Source: Bdellovibrio sp.
GTDB lineage: Bacteria > Bdellovibrionota > Bacteriovoracia > Bacteriovoracales > Bacteriovoracaceae
Direction: 5' to 3'
DNA: 64,000 nucleotides
NCBI GenBank assembly: GCA_022729855.1
Contig: DZBG01000001.1
Location: 1 to 64,000 of the forward strand
Shown here: one piece after another, positions 7,660 to 32,901 of the stretch
Layout: each line of letters opens with the position of its first letter
Numbering within the stretch: the first letter of the stretch is position 1
Notes under the pieces: model-generated
Database searches by the model: none
Told to the model about the DNA's origin: nothing
Seen by the model: the letters and a program-made list of their open reading frames with translations, nothing else
Made by a program: the position numbers and the translations under genes

Positions 7660-9780
7660 ATGAAAAAACTTTCACTTTTAGCTTTCACTCTAGTTGCTGG
7701 TTGGACCTTCTCAGGTTTTGCCCAGACCCAGGACGCCAACCGACAGGTTATCGTTGAACTCTGTGGTAGTAACTACTCCGCCAATAAGACCGGTTCAGGT
7801 GTTGTTGTAGGGGATTGGACTAAAAAGGATGACCAGCGATGTATCCAAGTTCGATGTGATGAAAAGCAAGATGATGGAAATAGCTCTACTGTTGTCAGAA
7901 CAAAATGTCTTTCAGAAGCTGATTATCAAAAACTTATTCTTGGTGTAGTGAACGGAAGTCCTGCAGGATCAAATAATGGTTCTAGTGGAACTCCTGCTGG
8001 ATCAAATAATGGTTCTGGCGGAACTCCTGCTGGAGCAAATAATGGTTCAGGTACAGGAGTTAATGACGGCGATCTTATTTGTGTCACAAAAAATAATGGT
8101 TCAGTAATTATTGGAAAAAATCACGCTTGTTATAAAGAATGTAATCCAAAAAAATGGTTATTCGGAAAAAGACATGCTGATACAACAAATCCAAAATGTA
8201 TTCGTTGTATGCAAGGTCAGGGCTATACTTTTGAAGAGTCAGTTCTAAAAGCAGCAGGTGTTGCTATTGTCACAGGTGTAGGTGTGACTGAGTGTCGTGA
8301 TGCTCAAGGACGACTTGTTTCTCGTACAACAAGTGGTGAATGTCCATCTCACGGTGGAGCAGGAACGACAACAATCATTAGAGGTGGAGCAGCCGCTTCT
8401 GCTGGTTCAGGTAATACTGCAGCTTCAGCAAATGGTGGAGTGGTTGTTTCAGGTGGAGCAGTTGGTTCAGTGAATGCTGGAATTAATATTCCTTCTGAAT
8501 GTATTAAAAATAACGGAAAAATCAAAAATACAAAAAAATGTCAGGGCTATGCAAATGGTTCTTACACAATAAGTGCTGGTGGTGGTGGACGCTTCAATTG
8601 TGCAAGTGGTTCAACAACTGCAGGTTGTGTTGGTAATGATGAGTATAATCAAATCATGGCCAGATATTATAACGGAGCTGACTGTGTAAACTGTGCGGCT
8701 TCTGGACGTAAACAAAGTACTCTTTCTGGAATTGCAGAAATTGTTGGGGCCATCGCTCCACCACTTGCTCAGTTCGGTGCAAGTTACTTCCAATCAAAAG
8801 CTTATCAGAAATCAAATGAGGCTTGGGCCGGAGCTGCCTCGGTTGGATTCGAGCAATGTCGTTTGAGTCAGCAAGATTATTTAAATTATTCTCAAACTGC
8901 TCTTACTAATTATCAGAACAATTTAGCTACAAATGAAATGCCAGGTCTATCTCCTGAACAACAGCAAGCCATGCTTGCAAGTGGTGGCGGGAACTGTAAT
9001 GGTTACCAACTTGGCGGCTTCGCTGGTCTTGGTGGTGGATACTACGGTGGTGGAGTTGGCGGATATATCGGTGGTGTCGCAGGCGGCGGATATGTTGGCG
9101 GTGGCTACACTGGTGGATATGTAACTGGCGGATACGTTAGTGGATATGCTGGTGGTGTTTATGTCGCTGGTGGCGCTCAAGGCGGATACCCAGGTGGATA
9201 CATTGGAACTGTCGGTGGTGTTGGTGGATACGCTCAAGGTGGATACATCGGAACTGTTGGTGGAGTAGGCGGATACCCTGGTGGTTACGTTGGAACAGTC
9301 GGCGGAGTAGGTGGATATATTGGAACTGTTGGTGGTGTTGGCGGTTATGCTCAAGGTGGGTACGTCAGCGGTATTAATGGTGGATATATTGGTGGAATCT
9401 CTCTTGCTGGTGGTTATGCCGGTGGATACGCTCAAGGCGGATACGTGAGTGGATATGCTGGTGGATACGCTCAAGGCGGATATATCGGAACCGTTGGTGG
9501 AGTTGGTGGTTATGCTCAAGGTGGCTACGTGAGTGGTTATGCTGGAGGATATGCTCAAGGCGGATACGTGAGTGGATATGCTGGTGGTGTAGGCGGAGTT
9601 GGTGGTATCTATGTGGCCGGCGGAGTTGCTGGTGGTGGATACAACGGTGGTTATAATGGCGGTTGGGGATCAGGTGTGAACCAAGGTAGTTATTATAGCT
9701 CAATGATTAGCGGACAAGCAGCTAATGCAGACTACTATATGCAACAGCAAGGTCTTGGATACAATATGGGTTATAGATAG
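7660..9780 (+). CDS. secreted Gly/Tyr-repeat protein
   Basis: A 706-aa exported protein. Signal peptide (MKKLSLLAFTLVAGWTFSGFA), then a Cys-rich N-terminal region (about residues 25-100), then a threefold Gly/Asn linker (GSNNGSSGTPA type, near residues 103-130). Further Cys-containing segments (CYKECNP, CIRCMQG, DCVNCAASG) and a helical stretch (about 355-445) come next. The rest, residue 448 to about 665, is low-complexity Gly/Tyr/Val repeat built from GGYIGTVGGVGGYAQ and GGYVSGYAGGYAQ units. A C-terminal QAANADYYMQQQ tail ends it. This architecture suggests a secreted structural or adhesive fibre protein; I know of no named family. Promoter, palindrome and terminator mark it as a single-gene unit. 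Confidence 0.85.
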   Translation: MKKLSLLAFTLVAGWTFSGFAQTQDANRQVIVELCGSNYSANKTGSGVVVGDWTKKDDQRCIQVRCDEKQDDGNSSTVVRTKCLSEADYQKLILGVVNGSPAGSNNGSSGTPAGSNNGSGGTPAGANNGSGTGVNDGDLICVTKNNGSVIIGKNHACYKECNPKKWLFGKRHADTTNPKCIRCMQGQGYTFEESVLKAAGVAIVTGVGVTECRDAQGRLVSRTTSGECPSHGGAGTTTIIRGGAAASAGSGNTAASANGGVVVSGGAVGSVNAGINIPSECIKNNGKIKNTKKCQGYANGSYTISAGGGGRFNCASGSTTAGCVGNDEYNQIMARYYNGADCVNCAASGRKQSTLSGIAEIVGAIAPPLAQFGASYFQSKAYQKSNEAWAGAASVGFEQCRLSQQDYLNYSQTALTNYQNNLATNEMPGLSPEQQQAMLASGGGNCNGYQLGGFAGLGGGYYGGGVGGYIGGVAGGGYVGGGYTGGYVTGGYVSGYAGGVYVAGGAQGGYPGGYIGTVGGVGGYAQGGYIGTVGGVGGYPGGYVGTVGGVGGYIGTVGGVGGYAQGGYVSGINGGYIGGISLAGGYAGGYAQGGYVSGYAGGYAQGGYIGTVGGVGGYAQGGYVSGYAGGYAQGGYVSGYAGGVGGVGGIYVAGGVAGGGYNGGYNGGWGSGVNQGSYYSSMISGQAANADYYMQQQGLGYNMGYR
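9004..9660 (+). repeat. tandem Gly/Tyr coding repeats
   Basis: Degenerate tandem units encoding GGYIGTVGGVGGYAQ-type and GGYVSGYAGGYAQ-type blocks. Codon choice varies between copies (GGT, GGA and GGC mixed), so the repeat is conserved at protein level more than at DNA level, arguing for selection on the protein rather than recent slippage. Confidence 0.85.
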
Positions 9781-24314: not shown

Positions 24315-26393
24315 ATGGATAGGTTTTTTGAAAAACTTCGCATCTTTGCACAAAATTCAGATCTCTCATTAGCACTGGGACTTATCATGATCATCATGGT
24401 GATGATCGTGCCGATTCCACCAATGCTCATGGACTTACTTATTGCATTCAGTATCGGAATTTCAGTAATGATTCTCCTTATGTCTGTTTATGCTAAGAAG
24501 CCTCTGGATTTCTCTACTTTTCCTGCTGTTCTCCTTGTAACAACTCTTCTTCGTCTTGCTCTTAACGTAGCTTCTACTCGTAATATTCTTATTCATGGTG
24601 CTGCTGATGGAACTGCTGCTTCAGGAAAGATTATTGAATCTTTCGGAGAGTTCGTTGTTGGTGGTAACTATGCTGTGGGATTAATTATTTTTACGATTCT
24701 AGTTGTGATTAACTTTATCGTTATTACAAAAGGTGCTGGACGAGTGGCAGAGGTTTCTGCTCGATTTACATTAGATGCAATGCCAGGAAAGCAGATGGCC
24801 ATCGATGCAGATTTAAATGCAGGACTTATTGATGATAAAACGGCCAAGGCCAGACGTTCTGAAATTGCTCGAGAAGCAGATTTTTACGGGTCGATGGATG
24901 GTGCTTCAAAATTCGTAAGAGGAGATGCCATTGCAGGTATCTTGATTACAGCGATTAACGTTTTGGGTGGTATTGTTATTGGTGTCGCTCAAAATGATAT
25001 GAGTTTTGCAGATGCCGCAAGAACTTTTACTCTACTCACAGTAGGGGATGGACTTGTAGCACAGATCCCAGCTCTCGTTATTTCTACAGCTGCCGGTATG
25101 ATTGCCACTCGAAATAATGATGGTAATGCACTTGGTGGACAGATTAATGCTGAATTTAAAATTCATCCTAAAGCATTTTTTATTAGCGGTGGTGCTCTTG
25201 GAATGTTTGCCTTGATTCCAGGATTTCCAGGAATGCCATTTATGATCATGGGAATGGCATTGGGGTTTGCTGGATATAGAATTGATAAATCTAATGAGAA
25301 AAAGATTGTTGATGATGCAAAAGTGGCAGTGGATGCAGAGAAAAAACCAGCAGGTGAAACTCTTGAATCTCTTCTGGCCGTGGAGCTTGTTCAACTAGAA
25401 GTTGGATATGGTCTCGTGAGTTTAGTGGATGCTGAACAAAACGGTGATCTTCTTGAACGTATCTCTCATATTAGAAAACAATTTGCTGTGGATTGGGGGG
25501 TTATTATTCCTTCAGTTCGTATTAAAGATAATCTTGAATTAAAGCCAGGTGGATATTCTGTGAAACTTAAAGGGATTGAGATCGCTAAGGGCGAGCTTAT
25601 GCCGGATTATTTCATGGCAATGGATCCAGGGACAGTCATTGAAAGAATGGAAGGGGTTGAGACAACGGAACCAGTTTTTGGTCTTCCAGCTGTTTGGGTC
25701 ACTGACGATCAACGTGATGAGGCTCAGTATAATGGTTACACAGTGGTTGATCTTTCAACTGTTATTGCCACTCATATCACAGAAGTGCTTAAAGCAAATC
25801 TTAACGAGCTGTTTGGTCGTCAAGAACTTGTTAAAGTGATCGATTCGTTTAAAGAAGAAAATCCTAAAATTGTTTCAGATCTTATTCCAGATATTATGAC
25901 TCTTGGAACTGTGCTTAAAGTGATGCAGAACCTTCTTCGCGAAGGAGTTTCTGTTCGTGACTTAAGAACAATCATGGAGACACTTGCTGAGTTTGGAACT
26001 TCATCAAAAGATCCTGAGAATTTAACTGAGTATGTTCGTCAGGCCCTTTATAGAACTATTACAGAAAGAATAAAGAGTTCGCAGGGAGATGTTCCTCTCT
26101 TTACTCTCGATAGAACTCTTGAAGAAACAATCGCTCGCAGTATTATCCAAACCGATCATGGATCACAATTAAATCTTGATCCTAAAACGACTCAAACAAT
26201 CCTTGCGACTTTAAATGAAAAAATTGAAGAGGCGACAGGAATGGGAGAGAAAATGGTGATTCTTTGTTCACCTGTTATTCGTCGTCATTTTAAAAGACTG
26301 ACTGAAAAATTTATTCCTAATTTAATAGTGGTGAGTCATAATGAATTAAGTCCAGATGTTAATATTAGGTCTCTTGGTAGCGTAAGGTTATAA
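24315..26393 (+). CDS. flhA: flagellar export protein FlhA
   Basis: Largest export-gate component, forming the nonameric cytoplasmic ring that receives chaperone-substrate complexes. 692 aa with about eight N-terminal membrane segments, the FHIPEP-type loop (GAGRVAEVSARFTLDAMPGK, then QMAIDADLNAGLI), and the cytoplasmic domain from about residue 330 (VELVQLEVGYGLVSLVD, TLGTVLKVMQNLLREGVSVRD). GGGGAG precedes the ATG. It is followed after two bases by flhF. Confidence 0.97.
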   Translation: MDRFFEKLRIFAQNSDLSLALGLIMIIMVMIVPIPPMLMDLLIAFSIGISVMILLMSVYAKKPLDFSTFPAVLLVTTLLRLALNVASTRNILIHGAADGTAASGKIIESFGEFVVGGNYAVGLIIFTILVVINFIVITKGAGRVAEVSARFTLDAMPGKQMAIDADLNAGLIDDKTAKARRSEIAREADFYGSMDGASKFVRGDAIAGILITAINVLGGIVIGVAQNDMSFADAARTFTLLTVGDGLVAQIPALVISTAAGMIATRNNDGNALGGQINAEFKIHPKAFFISGGALGMFALIPGFPGMPFMIMGMALGFAGYRIDKSNEKKIVDDAKVAVDAEKKPAGETLESLLAVELVQLEVGYGLVSLVDAEQNGDLLERISHIRKQFAVDWGVIIPSVRIKDNLELKPGGYSVKLKGIEIAKGELMPDYFMAMDPGTVIERMEGVETTEPVFGLPAVWVTDDQRDEAQYNGYTVVDLSTVIATHITEVLKANLNELFGRQELVKVIDSFKEENPKIVSDLIPDIMTLGTVLKVMQNLLREGVSVRDLRTIMETLAEFGTSSKDPENLTEYVRQALYRTITERIKSSQGDVPLFTLDRTLEETIARSIIQTDHGSQLNLDPKTTQTILATLNEKIEEATGMGEKMVILCSPVIRRHFKRLTEKFIPNLIVVSHNELSPDVNIRSLGSVRL

Positions 26394-26395
26394 GA

Positions 26396-27922
26396 ATGTT
26401 TGTTAAGAAGTTTGAAGCTGATACGCTAGAAGAGGCATTGCAGGCGGTTAAATCGGACCTCGGTCCTGATGCTATTATTTTGAAAACGATAACAAATAAA
26501 GGGCTTAAGGGCGCTTTTAAGAAAAAACGTATTGAGATTACGGCAGCAATCTCAGAGAGAAATTTTGAAAAAAAATCAAAGGTAGATAAGGTTCTTAACG
26601 ATGATCAAAAACAATCTTTCTACCAAAACTCGGCAACAAATATGAAAAACACAATTAATGATTATGGCCATAAAACTCAACCTCAAGCTAGTGGCGGTGG
26701 TTATGGTTCAATGGGACTCAATAAAGTCGTTAATACTTTGGCCAAGGGCGGAGCAAGCCTTGCAGATGCTACAAATAAAACAACTTCAATTTTAAAAAAT
26801 AGCTTAGATGATTTCTTAAATACAGAAGCGGCCAGTGGTGGAATGGATGATTTCATTAATGATGCTTTTGATGAAGAAGAAACACCCGTTGCCCCAGTGA
26901 GAGCGGCTCCCACACAACGTGGAAGATATTCGGAACCACCTGAAGCTTTCAGAACCCCAGTTCAACCAGTAAGAGCAGAAAGATATGCTGAAGAAGAGCG
27001 AGCTGCACCTACAAGTGGTGTGAGTAAAGAAGCTTATCAAGAGCTAAAACATGAATTTAGAACTCAGCAAAATAAAATAGAACTTTTAGAAAAAAAATTA
27101 TCTGAGCTGACTCAAAATTATCAATTTAACCAAAAATTGATGTCAGAAGCTCAAGGTGTTTTCCAATTAAGAACAACTCTGAAGTCTTTAGGAATTGATG
27201 AGGGTCTTATTATTGAACTCATCAAAAAGGCCAGCTACGAGCTCACGAAAGAAGATCTTGAGAATCCTGATGTGGTTTTTGAATTTGCTCTGAGAGATAT
27301 GGCGAGCTCAATTAAATGTGAGTACCCATTATTTGCAAAAGTAGATCAAGGTCGTCCAGTAATGACTATTTTGGTCTCAGAAGCCGCTTCTGGGCAAAGT
27401 TCAATGAGCATGAAAGTCGCCATTCTTAAAAAAGATGTAACTCTTATACAGTTCTCAGAAGATTCTCAGAACTCTGGCAGTACAGATTTTGCCGCTCAGG
27501 TATTCGGAATCAAGGTTGAGAAGGCCCAGACCCCCTCTGAAGTGGTAAGTTTGGCCCGTAAATCATTTGAACAAAAAAAGTCTGTTTTAGTGGATTTACG
27601 TCTTAACCATAAGAATACAGAGGATATTAAGAAGTTTGTAGAGAGCTTAAGACGCTCTTTTGAAAACGTCGAAATCCTATGCACAATTTCAGCAATTCAC
27701 GCAGAACTTTATAATAGAAAAATTCTTGCCCGATATAAGGAAATTCTAGATGGAGTTATAATTTCTCATGTGGATCTTTGTATGAACTTTGGATCACTAT
27801 TCAATGTTCACAGACACCACAATAATCTGCCTCTCAAATTCTTCGGTACAGGCCCAATGGTGCCAGATGACTTAGAAGGAGCGACGGCAGAGAGATTAAT
27901 GGCAGGGTTGTTTCAGTTTTAA
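26396..27922 (+). CDS. flhF: FlhF-like protein with all GTPase motifs lost
   Basis: FlhF is the SRP-type GTPase that places the polar flagellum. This 508-aa protein keeps the FlhF N-terminus (MFVKKFEADTLEEALQAVKSDLGPDAIILKT), a long basic/Pro-rich linker, a helical N domain (about 210-315) and the C-terminal FFGTGPMVPDDLEGATAERLM. The nucleotide-binding motifs are gone. The P-loop position reads SEAASGQSSM (residues 328-337) instead of GPTGVGKTTT, the DTAGR position reads DLRLN (400-404), and the TKLDE position reads SHVDL (457-461). The frame is intact with normal codon use, so this is not a pseudogene or an obvious sequencing error. A GTP-independent scaffold role is likely. Confidence 0.88.
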   Translation: MFVKKFEADTLEEALQAVKSDLGPDAIILKTITNKGLKGAFKKKRIEITAAISERNFEKKSKVDKVLNDDQKQSFYQNSATNMKNTINDYGHKTQPQASGGGYGSMGLNKVVNTLAKGGASLADATNKTTSILKNSLDDFLNTEAASGGMDDFINDAFDEEETPVAPVRAAPTQRGRYSEPPEAFRTPVQPVRAERYAEEERAAPTSGVSKEAYQELKHEFRTQQNKIELLEKKLSELTQNYQFNQKLMSEAQGVFQLRTTLKSLGIDEGLIIELIKKASYELTKEDLENPDVVFEFALRDMASSIKCEYPLFAKVDQGRPVMTILVSEAASGQSSMSMKVAILKKDVTLIQFSEDSQNSGSTDFAAQVFGIKVEKAQTPSEVVSLARKSFEQKKSVLVDLRLNHKNTEDIKKFVESLRRSFENVEILCTISAIHAELYNRKILARYKEILDGVIISHVDLCMNFGSLFNVHRHHNNLPLKFFGTGPMVPDDLEGATAERLMAGLFQF

Positions 27923-27982: not shown

Positions 27983-28849
27983 ATGGACAAGGCCAGTGAG
28001 TGGTTGCTATCACACAGCTCTGCAATTCAAACTAAGCGCGCTAAACGTATTCCAGGTGAGTCGCACAAGTGCTTCAAAATTTCCATCACTGGTGGAAAGG
28101 GTGGAGTCGGTAAGACATCTGTGGCCCTCAAAACAGCTCAAGAGCTGAGTAATTTGGGTTATAGAACACTCCTGATTGACTGCGATAGCAATCTTTCAAA
28201 TACCGCCATTAAATTAGGTCTTCCGTTAGATCAAAAATTTTGGAAACTTCTTTCATCAGAACTTAGTTTTGATGAGTGCATAATTAAGAGAGGGGATTTT
28301 CATCTTCTTCCTGCATGCAACGGAAGTGTGGATCTTTTTGAATCAAAATTAAATTTTGATGAAGTCATGATCGATATTATTTCATCTCACGAAGATGAAT
28401 ATGATTATATCCTTTTGGATTGTCCTGCTGGCCTTTCAAAAGAGTCTCTTACACTCAGTGCTTATTGTGATTTTCGTTGGATCGTTGTGACTCCAGATAA
28501 ATCATCAATCACTGATTCATACTCTCTAGTAAAAATTCTTAACACGAAATACGGCGTGAAAGAAAATCATCTCTTAGTAAACATGTATAGTACTGATCGC
28601 CAATTTCAAAAAGTGGTTATTACTCTTAGTGAAACTATCGAGAATTTCTTAAATGCAAGAACAAATATTCTTGGAGGCATCAAAAAGTTTGATGTTGCTA
28701 ACGATGAATTTGATACTTTTTTCCTATCTCCATCAAATTCTGAGTGGCATAAGAATTTTCTTAAAATGATTTTTGGATTTACCGATAAGTTGGTAAGTCC
28801 TGAGGCCGACTTTAGTCGAGCTTTGGGTTTTGAGCAAGAAGTTCACTAA
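27983..28849 (+). CDS. flhG: MinD-like ATPase FlhG (FleN/YlxH)
   Basis: MinD/ParA-type ATPase that limits flagellar number, normally by acting on FlhF. 288 aa with a deviant Walker A ISITGGKGGVGKTSVALK (residues 33-50), DCDSNLSNTA, and LLDCPAGLSKESL. Canonical FlhG starts with a DQAxxLR helix that supplies a glutamine to FlhF; here the start reads MDKASEWLL, with Lys in place of that Gln. A C-terminal membrane-binding helix is not obvious. Located between flhF and fliA as in most polar-flagellate operons. AGGAGG lies before the ATG. Confidence 0.92.
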   Translation: MDKASEWLLSHSSAIQTKRAKRIPGESHKCFKISITGGKGGVGKTSVALKTAQELSNLGYRTLLIDCDSNLSNTAIKLGLPLDQKFWKLLSSELSFDECIIKRGDFHLLPACNGSVDLFESKLNFDEVMIDIISSHEDEYDYILLDCPAGLSKESLTLSAYCDFRWIVVTPDKSSITDSYSLVKILNTKYGVKENHLLVNMYSTDRQFQKVVITLSETIENFLNARTNILGGIKKFDVANDEFDTFFLSPSNSEWHKNFLKMIFGFTDKLVSPEADFSRALGFEQEVH

Positions 28850-28880
28850 CCCTAAAAAAAATGATGCTAAGGAGAGCGAG

Positions 28881-29666
28881 ATGTCTTCACTAACGACAAA
28901 ACTTAAAAATTTAAAAGATTACAGAAATACGGTAGAGCCTCATATTAAGGATGAAATCATTCTTGAGTACGCTCCACTCGTAAAGTATATCGCGCAAAAA
29001 ATTGCATCTCGTCTTCCCTCAAATATTGAGCTAGATGATTTAATTTCTTGTGGGGTTATTGGACTCATGGATGCCATCGAAAAATTCGATTCATCTCGTG
29101 ATAACAAATTCAAAACTTATGCTGAATTTCGTATTCGTGGTGCCATTCTTGACGAACTTCGCTCTCAAGACTGGGTTCCTCGTTCAGTTCGTGAAAAAGC
29201 TAAAATCGTTGAAAAAGCTTACGCTAAACTTGATAAAGAGTTTGGTCGTCCAGCGACTGATGATGAAATGTGTACAGAGCTTCAATGTTCAATGGATGAA
29301 TTCCATGAACTTATCAATAAATCAAAATCAGTATCGTTAATGAATATTGATGATGCTGCAGCAATGAGTAAGGGTGATAAGAAGCTAATGGTTTCTCTTA
29401 TGGAGACTTCACGCTCTGCTAACCCACAAACAGCTGTTGGTTATAAGCGTGCTCAAGAAGTTATTAAAGAAGGAATTAAAACTCTTCCTGAAAAACAACG
29501 TCTTGTTCTTTCACTTTATTATTTCGAAGATCTTAACCTTAAAGAGATTGGCCAGGTTCTAGATGTAACTGAGTCACGTGTGTCTCAGCTTCATACTCAA
29601 GCGATCATTAAGCTTAAAGCTAAACTTCGTAATCAATTTGATTCAGTTGAAGATCTTGCTGGTTAA
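28881..29666 (+). CDS. fliA: flagellar sigma factor FliA (sigma28)
   Basis: Alternative sigma factor for late flagellar genes. 261 aa from the ATG preceded by AAGGAGAG; a TTG inside flhG was rejected as start. Region 2 reads ELDDLISCGVIGLMDAIEKFD and KFKTYAEFRIRGAILDELRSQDW, region 3 VPRSVREKAK, and region 4 LPEKQRLVLSLYYFEDLNLKEIGQVLDVTESRVSQLHTQA. Last gene of the operon, followed by a strong terminator. Confidence 0.97.
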   Translation: MSSLTTKLKNLKDYRNTVEPHIKDEIILEYAPLVKYIAQKIASRLPSNIELDDLISCGVIGLMDAIEKFDSSRDNKFKTYAEFRIRGAILDELRSQDWVPRSVREKAKIVEKAYAKLDKEFGRPATDDEMCTELQCSMDEFHELINKSKSVSLMNIDDAAAMSKGDKKLMVSLMETSRSANPQTAVGYKRAQEVIKEGIKTLPEKQRLVLSLYYFEDLNLKEIGQVLDVTESRVSQLHTQAIIKLKAKLRNQFDSVEDLAG

Positions 29667-30550: not shown

Positions 30551-30585
30551 TTTAAATAGTGGAATTTACAACAAAAGGTCTGACC

Positions 30586-32901
30586 ATGGATTGGAAAAAA
30601 ACCTTGAATCGCTCGATGTGGACACTACACGGGTTTTTCTTTGTGATGGTAGCAACAGGAGTTGCTATTAGTCTGTATGCATTACGTTTGAATAATCTTC
30701 AAGCTGATCATGAGTCGCGTGCTGCAAAGGTACAAGAACTTGTCACTAAGGTTCAATCTCAAGAGAGTTTTGAGAAAATATCAAAATCACTTCTGCAAGG
30801 TAAGGCCGAGAGGGCCTATGATGAATATTCTGAACTTGGAAAAAATATTGCTGAACTTGAATCTATTTTAGGAATCAAAGTTTCAAAAGATTTGGGTCTA
30901 GGTCTCAGAACTTTCAAAAAACTCATTAATCAAAATTCTTCATTCTCAGATCCTGATGAAGCACTTAAGGTTTTAAACTCAAAAATTGCGGCCCTTGATA
31001 GTGTCGCGAAGACGAATAGCTTTAAAACAATTGAAGCGACTGCTGGGCTTATGAAAAGAAGAGCTGATTCAATCAATCCTCAAACTGTTTCTGGGATGGC
31101 GCAACTCTCTTATCTTGAATCCGATTTAAAAAGATTAGAAAGAGTGGTAACTGGTTCGTCTCTGACTGATGCTGAGAAAGCAGGCCTTGGAAATCGTTTC
31201 TCAGGAATGATGACTGAAATCACCATGCTTAAGAATATCTTTCAACAATCTCGTGATTTAAAAGTTCATAGTGAGCAGGCGACAATCGCTGTAAACACTT
31301 GGGTCAAAGATCTATCAGTGAGAGTGAAAGATACAAATTTATTAAAAGAAGAAAAACAAGAGCAGTTGATTTTGATGCTCGTAGGATTTTTAAGTTTTAT
31401 TGCCATTGGTTGGGTAATGGTGGCCTACTTATTTAGATGGCAAAAGAATAAAATCTCATCTGATATGGAAGAGGAGCTTAAGCTTCTGATTAAAAAAGGT
31501 CTGATGGAAGATCAGAGATTTGTTTTTGATAATTATTCAACAAAGACTCAGCAAGAGCTAGTCACTTTGATGGATCAGTTAAAAATCAAGCTCTCACTTG
31601 GTGGACTTCTCCATGAAGGACTTCCGTTTGCAGGCTTCATGGTAGATAAGCATTTTAAAGTGACATGGTGGAATCAATTATTCTGTGATCAACTTTTTCT
31701 CTCTGATGAAGAAGTCGAGTCAGATACTTTTAACTGGGACTATATTCGTGATTATTTAAATATCACTGAAGGTGACCCTGTTTACGAAGCATTGGTTAAT
31801 AAAATCGCTGGAATTTATCCTGTGAAAATTAAGTCAGATGAACTCTCTCCAGCACTTCCTTATGAAATGTATGTGAGTCCTATCACGGCCAACCGTGAGG
31901 ATAGAGTGATGATTTTCTTTTATCCACTCATGTCAGTGAAAGAATCAATCGATCAACAAGTTGAGCAAATTAAAAAACCTCTTCTTCAGGTTCTTGAATT
32001 ATGGTCGAAAGATAAAATGACTGAAGATGATAAAGCAATCTTTGATAAAGACTTTAAACATATCGATCAACATGATCTGTATTTAAAAGTCATTGGAATT
32101 TACGATACAGTGAAAGCTGATCGTACAGACCTTCTAAATTCAATGCTTGATCTTGAAAAAGAGAATGTTGATTATTTTACAGCTCTCAAAAATGTAAAAG
32201 AACTTAATACGCAGAGAAAAGAAGAGCTTAAAAAAGAAATGCGCCTTGTAAATGAAATGAAGATGACATTACTTGAGACGATTGAAAAATCTGATCAATT
32301 AATGAATATCAATAAAGTCGTACTGGGACAGAATGATGAACTTAAAGGTCAGGCACAACAGATTCAAATGAAGACTCAAAGTGTTCTTAAAAAGCACAAA
32401 GAAACTTCTGAGGTCATCGTACAGCTTGATGGAATTAAAACTGATTATAAGAAATTGAAGTTTGAGCTCATGGAAATTAAGGCCAAACTTATTTCAATGA
32501 ATAATTCATTTATTTCATCGATGCCAGTTCTTGATGAGCAACAATCTAAACTTGTAAATCGTTACAAGGATGAGCTTGCCCGACTTGATTTTAACGTGGC
32601 CACTCTTGATAAAAAATTATCTCAACTTGATGTGATCTTTTCAAAACTTCAAGTGATGTATGATCAACCTTCTGAGCAGTTTAATTTTAATTTTATGACT
32701 TCTCAAAAAGATCATTCATTACGTGAGAGTATCTCACAGCTTCAAAAAGACTTTGCTTATCAAGAAGAAGCGATCGTTGATCAATTTCAATCGATCTTTG
32801 ATTTACTCAAAAGTGATTCGAAAGGTCTTCAGATGTTGGATGAAGTGGCTTCAAGACATCTTGATGCCCCTTACGCTGAATCACACAGCTCGCTTCAGTA
32901 A
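30586..32901 (+). CDS. membrane PAS / coiled-coil protein
   Basis: A 771-aa protein from the ATG preceded by AAAGG; a GTG nine codons upstream is less likely. Two membrane segments (about residues 12-33 and 260-283) enclose a helical periplasmic region with four-helix sensor character. On the cytoplasmic side comes a PAS-like domain (about 345-455, GLPFAGFMVDKHFKVTWWNQLFCDQLFL). A coiled coil of about 250 residues (KENVDYFTALKNVKELN ... LKFELMEIKAKL) ends the protein. This is the layout of a receptor, but no histidine-kinase, GGDEF or chemoreceptor tip sequence is present. It may act by direct binding, possibly at the flagellar pole given the neighbours. Four bases separate it from the next gene. 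Confidence 0.75.
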   Translation: MDWKKTLNRSMWTLHGFFFVMVATGVAISLYALRLNNLQADHESRAAKVQELVTKVQSQESFEKISKSLLQGKAERAYDEYSELGKNIAELESILGIKVSKDLGLGLRTFKKLINQNSSFSDPDEALKVLNSKIAALDSVAKTNSFKTIEATAGLMKRRADSINPQTVSGMAQLSYLESDLKRLERVVTGSSLTDAEKAGLGNRFSGMMTEITMLKNIFQQSRDLKVHSEQATIAVNTWVKDLSVRVKDTNLLKEEKQEQLILMLVGFLSFIAIGWVMVAYLFRWQKNKISSDMEEELKLLIKKGLMEDQRFVFDNYSTKTQQELVTLMDQLKIKLSLGGLLHEGLPFAGFMVDKHFKVTWWNQLFCDQLFLSDEEVESDTFNWDYIRDYLNITEGDPVYEALVNKIAGIYPVKIKSDELSPALPYEMYVSPITANREDRVMIFFYPLMSVKESIDQQVEQIKKPLLQVLELWSKDKMTEDDKAIFDKDFKHIDQHDLYLKVIGIYDTVKADRTDLLNSMLDLEKENVDYFTALKNVKELNTQRKEELKKEMRLVNEMKMTLLETIEKSDQLMNINKVVLGQNDELKGQAQQIQMKTQSVLKKHKETSEVIVQLDGIKTDYKKLKFELMEIKAKLISMNNSFISSMPVLDEQQSKLVNRYKDELARLDFNVATLDKKLSQLDVIFSKLQVMYDQPSEQFNFNFMTSQKDHSLRESISQLQKDFAYQEEAIVDQFQSIFDLLKSDSKGLQMLDEVASRHLDAPYAESHSSLQ

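Follow-up and report, generated by a model that had tools for sequence, protein, structure and literature searches.

The FlhF of Bacteriovoracaceae, the family that makes up its entire class in the genome collection, is most aptly classed as a pseudo-GTPase variant: synteny, domains and fold identify it as an orthologue, yet it fails the definition of a GTPase. FlhF and FlhG are regarded as a conserved GTP/ATP switch for the position and number of flagella. A class whose FlhF lacks the catalytic apparatus, with no active copy in the searched genomes and with one polar flagellum on record for its characterised members, is a natural experiment on the purpose of the GTP cycle, and it makes testable whether polar placement needs this cycle of FlhF or the FlhG ATPase alone. 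Our results suggest that flagellum placement in this predatory class works without FlhF as a molecular switch.

Locus and domain architecture of flhF

We analyzed a stretch of 64,000 nucleotides (the window) from a host genome of 2.8 Mb (G000; 177 contigs, 99% complete). The flagellar cluster in the window runs fliM-fliN...flhB-flhA-flhF-flhG-fliA, and all features assigned to a strand below lie on the plus strand. The flhF-like gene (26396..27922) is an open frame of 508 codons, encoding 508 aa. It is placed between flhA (24315..26393), the export gate gene and 5′ neighbour (TIGR01398, 889 bits), and flhG-fliA, as expected of FlhF. The protein matched the NCBIfam FlhF equivalog TIGR03499 (E 3e-18) with 66.8 bits, short of the cut-off of 174.15. 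The match to Pfam SRP54 (PF00448) exceeded its cut-off (37.3 versus 22.7 bits), and it begins past G1, which stays unmatched. Elsewhere in the window, the second half of a 706-aa ORF (7660-9780) contains a long repeat rich in Gly, Tyr and Val (GGYxGG).

A profile built from 49 homologues matched 2px0, the FlhF of B. subtilis, at E 2e-7, and 9en1, a solved B-domain of FlhF, at E 0.002; residues 1-60 (26396..26575) are assigned to this B-domain. This predicted FliG-interacting part ranks with the best-conserved regions of the protein, as its invariant alignment columns in the family show. Haemagglutinin structures matched by the same profile were set aside as coiled-coil chance, as were PHROGs matches as chance. 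In the AlphaFold2 model, the B-domain is confident and the NG domain mostly confident, with a disordered linker between them. Foldseek returned S. putrefaciens FlhF (8r9r) as the best PDB match of the model (E 9e-12, TM 0.71 on the target), assigning the SRP-GTPase fold to the N and G domains (residues 250-508; 27143..27919). Gene order, domain layout, profile and fold make the ORF an FlhF orthologue. The identity and the open frame proposed in the earlier note on this DNA are both confirmed.

Replacement of the GTPase motifs

We compared the NG regions of 69 FlhFs of the family (Bacteriovoracaceae) and 43 FlhFs of other families. The P-loop position (G1; residues 328-337, 27377..27406) reads SEAASGQSSM, with Q334 at the place of the Walker lysine; in the profile alignment with 2px0, GSTGAGKTTT stands opposite seassgqssm and TKID opposite shlD. 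Position 334 was Gln in all 69 family sequences and Lys in all 43 others, and residue 328 was Ser in 97% of the family. Just three NG residues are conserved in both groups and yet differ between them (A299L, G328S and K334Q), and two of these belong to the P-loop. The alignment shows conserved substitution at the P-loop (G328S, K334Q) rather than erosion.

The DTYR position (G2; residues 354-363, 27455..27484) is lost and unconserved, with a mean column entropy of 3.25 bits in the family versus 1.28 elsewhere. At G3, DLRLN (residues 400-404; 27593..27607) retains Asp D400 and has lost the DTAG Gly. At G4, SHVDL (residues 457-461; 27764..27778) contains the invariant Asp460, and both the Lys, now mostly His in the family, and the Glu after the Asp are gone. 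The G1-G4 consensus (GxxxxGKT, DTYR, DTAG, TKxD) is absent from the family FlhF except for the G3 and G4 Asp. Residues kept in the family are G333, K340, D400, D460, G466, P479, G486, P490, D492, E494, E499 and R500, residue 335 is mostly Ser/Thr, and the G5 or closing loop with the C-terminal helix (residues 481-500; 27836..27895) is retained, with G486, P490, D492, E494, E499 and R500 common to canonical FlhF. A segment S-A-I-H-x-E-x-Y-N-R-K (residues 432-442; 27689..27721) is conserved only in the family (0.74 bits versus 1.86 in the others), having gained I434, Y439 and N440. Mean G-domain entropy was about equal in family and canonical FlhFs (1.68 and 1.75 bits).

The G domain has lost its catalytic parts and those that bind phosphate and Mg, and the guanine-side Asp, closing loop, NG fold and FliG-binding N-terminus stay. 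A GTPase fold, non-conservative loss of key G-motif residues and selective retention, the features by which pseudo-GTPases are recognized, are all found in this FlhF. With these residues replaced, it is almost certain that the family FlhF would lack normal GTP hydrolysis. The strings on which the earlier note relied, namely the three motif positions above and VPDDLEGATAERL at residues 489-501, are exact in letters and coordinates. Its statement that every GTPase motif had been lost holds for the first P-loop Gly, the Lys, DTYR, the Gly of DTAG and, in G4, the Lys and the Glu that follows the Asp, but goes too far for the G3 and G4 Asp, G333, Ser/Thr335, K340 and the G5 region, which are kept.

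Retention of D460, Ser/Thr335, K340 and the G5 region means that a nucleotide or another ligand may still bind. The main rival explanation is that FlhF does not hydrolyse GTP yet holds GDP/GTP permanently as a structural ligand and dimerises through it, like class II/III pseudo-GTPases, and we consider this rather unlikely. It is favoured by the retained residues, including G333, and such pseudo-GTPase classes have been described for septins (PMC10731463), but neither the Walker Lys nor the first P-loop Gly, DTYR or the G4 Lys is present. Mutants of V. alginolyticus FlhF bear on both sides (PMC6092412). K305A, at the Q334 position, merely reduces flagellation and leaves some flagella, whereas T306A and D439A, at retained positions, abolish it, as this reading would have it; against it, both flagella and GTPase activity are abolished in E440K, which alters the residue equivalent to the lost Glu. 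When we transferred the Vibrio numbering by motif spacing, we inferred that the equivalents of G299, K305, R334, G380, K437 and E440 would be absent from the family FlhF, and those of G304, T306, K311, D377, D439 and D470 present.

A second explanation, which seems to us very improbable, is that the pocket has been re-purposed for another ligand, for example a nucleotide second messenger, which Gln334 would newly contact and for which FlhF would be a sensor. The replacements equal the originals in conservation (Q334 in 100% and S328 in 97% of the family), segment 432-442 is newly conserved, and SpoIVA, which binds ATP, is a precedent for a change of ligand (PMC10731463). The DTYR region is nevertheless unconserved, as its entropy shows, and the conserved patch may instead be a protein interface.

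Distribution and selection across the class

The loss is wider than the earlier note described: it is a class-wide state, not one odd gene. By protein search, 105 of 115 family genomes contain the homologue; by profile search across the class, 119 of 129 genomes do, all of one family. None of the 69 full-length family ORFs has GxxxxGK[ST]. Named relatives in Bacteriovoracaceae/Halobacteriovoraceae include Bacteriovorax sp. DB6_IX and BSW11_IV and Halobacteriovorax marinus, and the isolates have the same FlhF state. By contrast, the Lys is kept in every one of the 50 FlhFs examined from the other families of the phylum (the 43 aligned and 7 short ones).

Canonical FlhF above the TIGR03499 cut-off was found in 0 of 110 family genomes, near-closed ones included; in a sample of the phylum, 74 of 192 genomes contained an FlhF above this cut-off, none of them from Bacteriovoracaceae. 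The host genome yielded no second FlhF, just two SRP54 matches of the Ffh/FtsY kind. The codon for Q334 is CAA in 48 and CAG in 21 of the 69 family genes. The same loss in 69/69 homologues, with Gln encoded in two ways, shows that it is neither chance nor a sequencing error. A sequencing or binning artefact, or a canonical FlhF elsewhere in the genome, might be suspected from the fragmented host assembly of 177 contigs; this is hardly tenable, given only Ffh/FtsY-type matches at 99% completeness, the empty search of 110 family genomes and the like state of the isolates. The earlier note had named a second canonical flhF and a P-loop restored by re-sequencing as findings that could overturn it, and the genome searches and the survey of relatives, respectively, remove both.

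In a quick tree (midpoint root, SH-aLRT only), the family FlhFs formed one clade on a long stem with full SH-aLRT support. A recent horizontal origin was rejected, the family being one clade and plasmid matches being absent. In 14 close pairs, NG-domain dN/dS was 0.01-0.06, with some dS values near saturation. As far as these sequences tell, the change is a single ancestral event, fixed once in the ancestor of Bacteriovoracaceae and followed by strong purifying selection. Low dN/dS together with a G-domain entropy like that of canonical FlhF indicates that the G domain was rebuilt and then held, rather than decaying. Although the lost consensus motifs could be taken for decay of a dispensable gene, we give this reading practically no weight, in view of the dN/dS values, columns that stay invariant at 40-50% identity and the presence of the gene in 119/129 class genomes.

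In two genomes (G026 and G036), FliG was found, and FlhA and FlhF were not. Because flhA adjoins flhF, this absence is probably an assembly gap.

FlhG, flagellation and a proposed adaptor role

The partner gene flhG (27983..28849) encodes a MinD-like ATPase with KGGVGKTS intact. Its N-terminus, MDKASEWLLSH (27983..28015), has xxWL at the place of DQAxxLR, the N-terminal helix whose Gln is the element stimulating the FlhF GTPase (PMC12826062). DQAxxLR occurred in 0 of 96 distinct family FlhGs versus 8 of 32 from other families, and xxWL stood in the short N-terminal extension of 94 of the 96 versus 0 of the 32. We rejected loss of DQAxxLR as a class-specific trait, since Pseudomonas FleN and 24/32 other-family FlhGs also lack it; the specific part is xxWL. 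An FlhG without DQAxxLR would fit an FlhF with nothing to stimulate. This link is only suggestive, because DQAxxLR is also missing where FlhF is canonical, and phylogenetically it is a single event. In two other families (f2 and f13; L103-L109), short FlhFs of 349-382 aa have an intact P-loop, and FlhG has almost no N-terminal extension.

Bacteriovorax strains including DB6_IX and BSW11_IV are recorded with one single polar sheathed flagellum (PMC4511183), and the FlhFs of both named strains are within the invariant-Gln alignment. B. stolpii and B. starrii are likewise recorded with a single polar sheathed flagellum (PMC7175336), and the flagellum of Bacteriovorax sp. As-1 is also single and polar (PMC12642874). 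In the window organism, whose flagellation is known from genes alone, flagellin and FliG genes are present. As to the role of FlhF in flagellar number and position, the single polar flagellum alongside the family FlhF is a correlation only.

FlhF also occurs in the family without a flagellum. FlhA, FliG and flagellin were found in none of the four genomes of genus g33 (G032, G064, G075 and G083; 88-99% complete), yet FlhF with the GQ loop is retained in three of them. At these flhF loci (L203:9544-10671, L204:9441-10481 and L205:9109-10236), a sigma-28 gene and a membrane PAS protein lie alongside, and the fliL-flhA block and flhG are absent. The remnants are SpoIID-amidase-DsbA on one side and, on the other, this sigma factor gene (fliA) with the membrane protein, of ~640 aa. 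The counterpart of the sigma factor gene in the window, of the fliA/whiG type, is at 28830..29666 (TIGR02479, 269 bits). A ~170-aa ORF with no Pfam family overlaps the flhF start in g33 (L203:9026-9547, L204:8935-9444 and L205:10233-10742); its origin as an FliM relic is unsupported (hhalign probability 0.1%).

The ~640-aa protein is a homologue of the product of 30559..32901 in the window, which has two TM segments with a helical periplasmic part between them, a PAS fold and a long coiled coil. This membrane PAS protein is present in 63/66 family genomes versus 0/126 from other families of the phylum, and its gene lies 1.0-3.3 kb from flhF in 56/62. From linkage and class specificity, we regard it as a candidate FlhF partner. 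Since g33 keeps FlhF without a flagellum, the job of FlhF need not be only flagellar, and its retention there points to a non-flagellar role.

Taken together, we think it reasonably probable that the family FlhF is a pseudo-GTPase adaptor, blind to nucleotide, with nucleotide control left to the FlhG ATPase. The FlhF N-terminus would capture FliG/FliF and bring them to the pole, where the NG domain would dock, with the linked membrane PAS protein as a possible site; release or counting would be driven by the FlhG ATPase via the WL helix, not by a GTP cycle of FlhF. The NG domain of Shewanella FlhF binds HubP regardless of nucleotide (PMC11236974), which is a precedent for nucleotide-free docking. 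In Vibrio and Pseudomonas, localisation of FlhF needs GTP binding but not hydrolysis (PMC6092412; PMC12713375), and a nucleotide-blind FlhF therefore departs from the known cases. Searches of the host genome for polar anchors with FimV_Cterm and DUF2802 gave no matches, with a weak FimV control and a silent DUF2802 control. More tentatively, the nucleotide-free FlhF might be the core of a polar scaffold beyond flagella, a module with the membrane PAS/coiled-coil protein and sigma-28 that outlived the flagellum in one genus and elsewhere places the flagellum, with the FlhG ATPase as sole nucleotide switch. The earlier note had read this FlhF as a landmark or scaffold working without GTP. The identity of FlhF, the same loss in relatives, the lack of a second FlhF and the recorded polar flagellum (PMC4511183) support that reading in part.

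We found no description of a GTPase-dead FlhF, or of FlhF in Bacteriovorax, in the open-access literature. The family FlhF shares with the FlhFs of B. subtilis (2px0/3syn), Shewanella putrefaciens (8r9r), Vibrio and Campylobacter the gene order flhA-flhF-flhG-fliA, a B-domain with the FliG-interacting part, the linker, the NG fold, G5 and the C-terminal helix. Unlike canonical FlhF, it carries G328S and K334Q, has no DTYR, no DTAG Gly and no G4 Lys or Glu, and is accompanied by an FlhG without DQAxxLR. In Pseudomonas, FleN also lacks DQAxxLR and FlhF hydrolysis is dispensable for localisation, but FlhF there shows GTPase activity and needs GTP binding. Pseudo-GTPases such as class I septins (e.g. 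Spn7) and the pseudo-GTPase domains of p190RhoGAP likewise combine a GTPase fold under selection with loss of G motifs and a likely role in protein interaction. By contrast with these septin and Ras pseudo-GTPases, the family FlhF belongs to the SIMIBI/SRP class, and it is single-copy and class-wide, with no active FlhF beside it.
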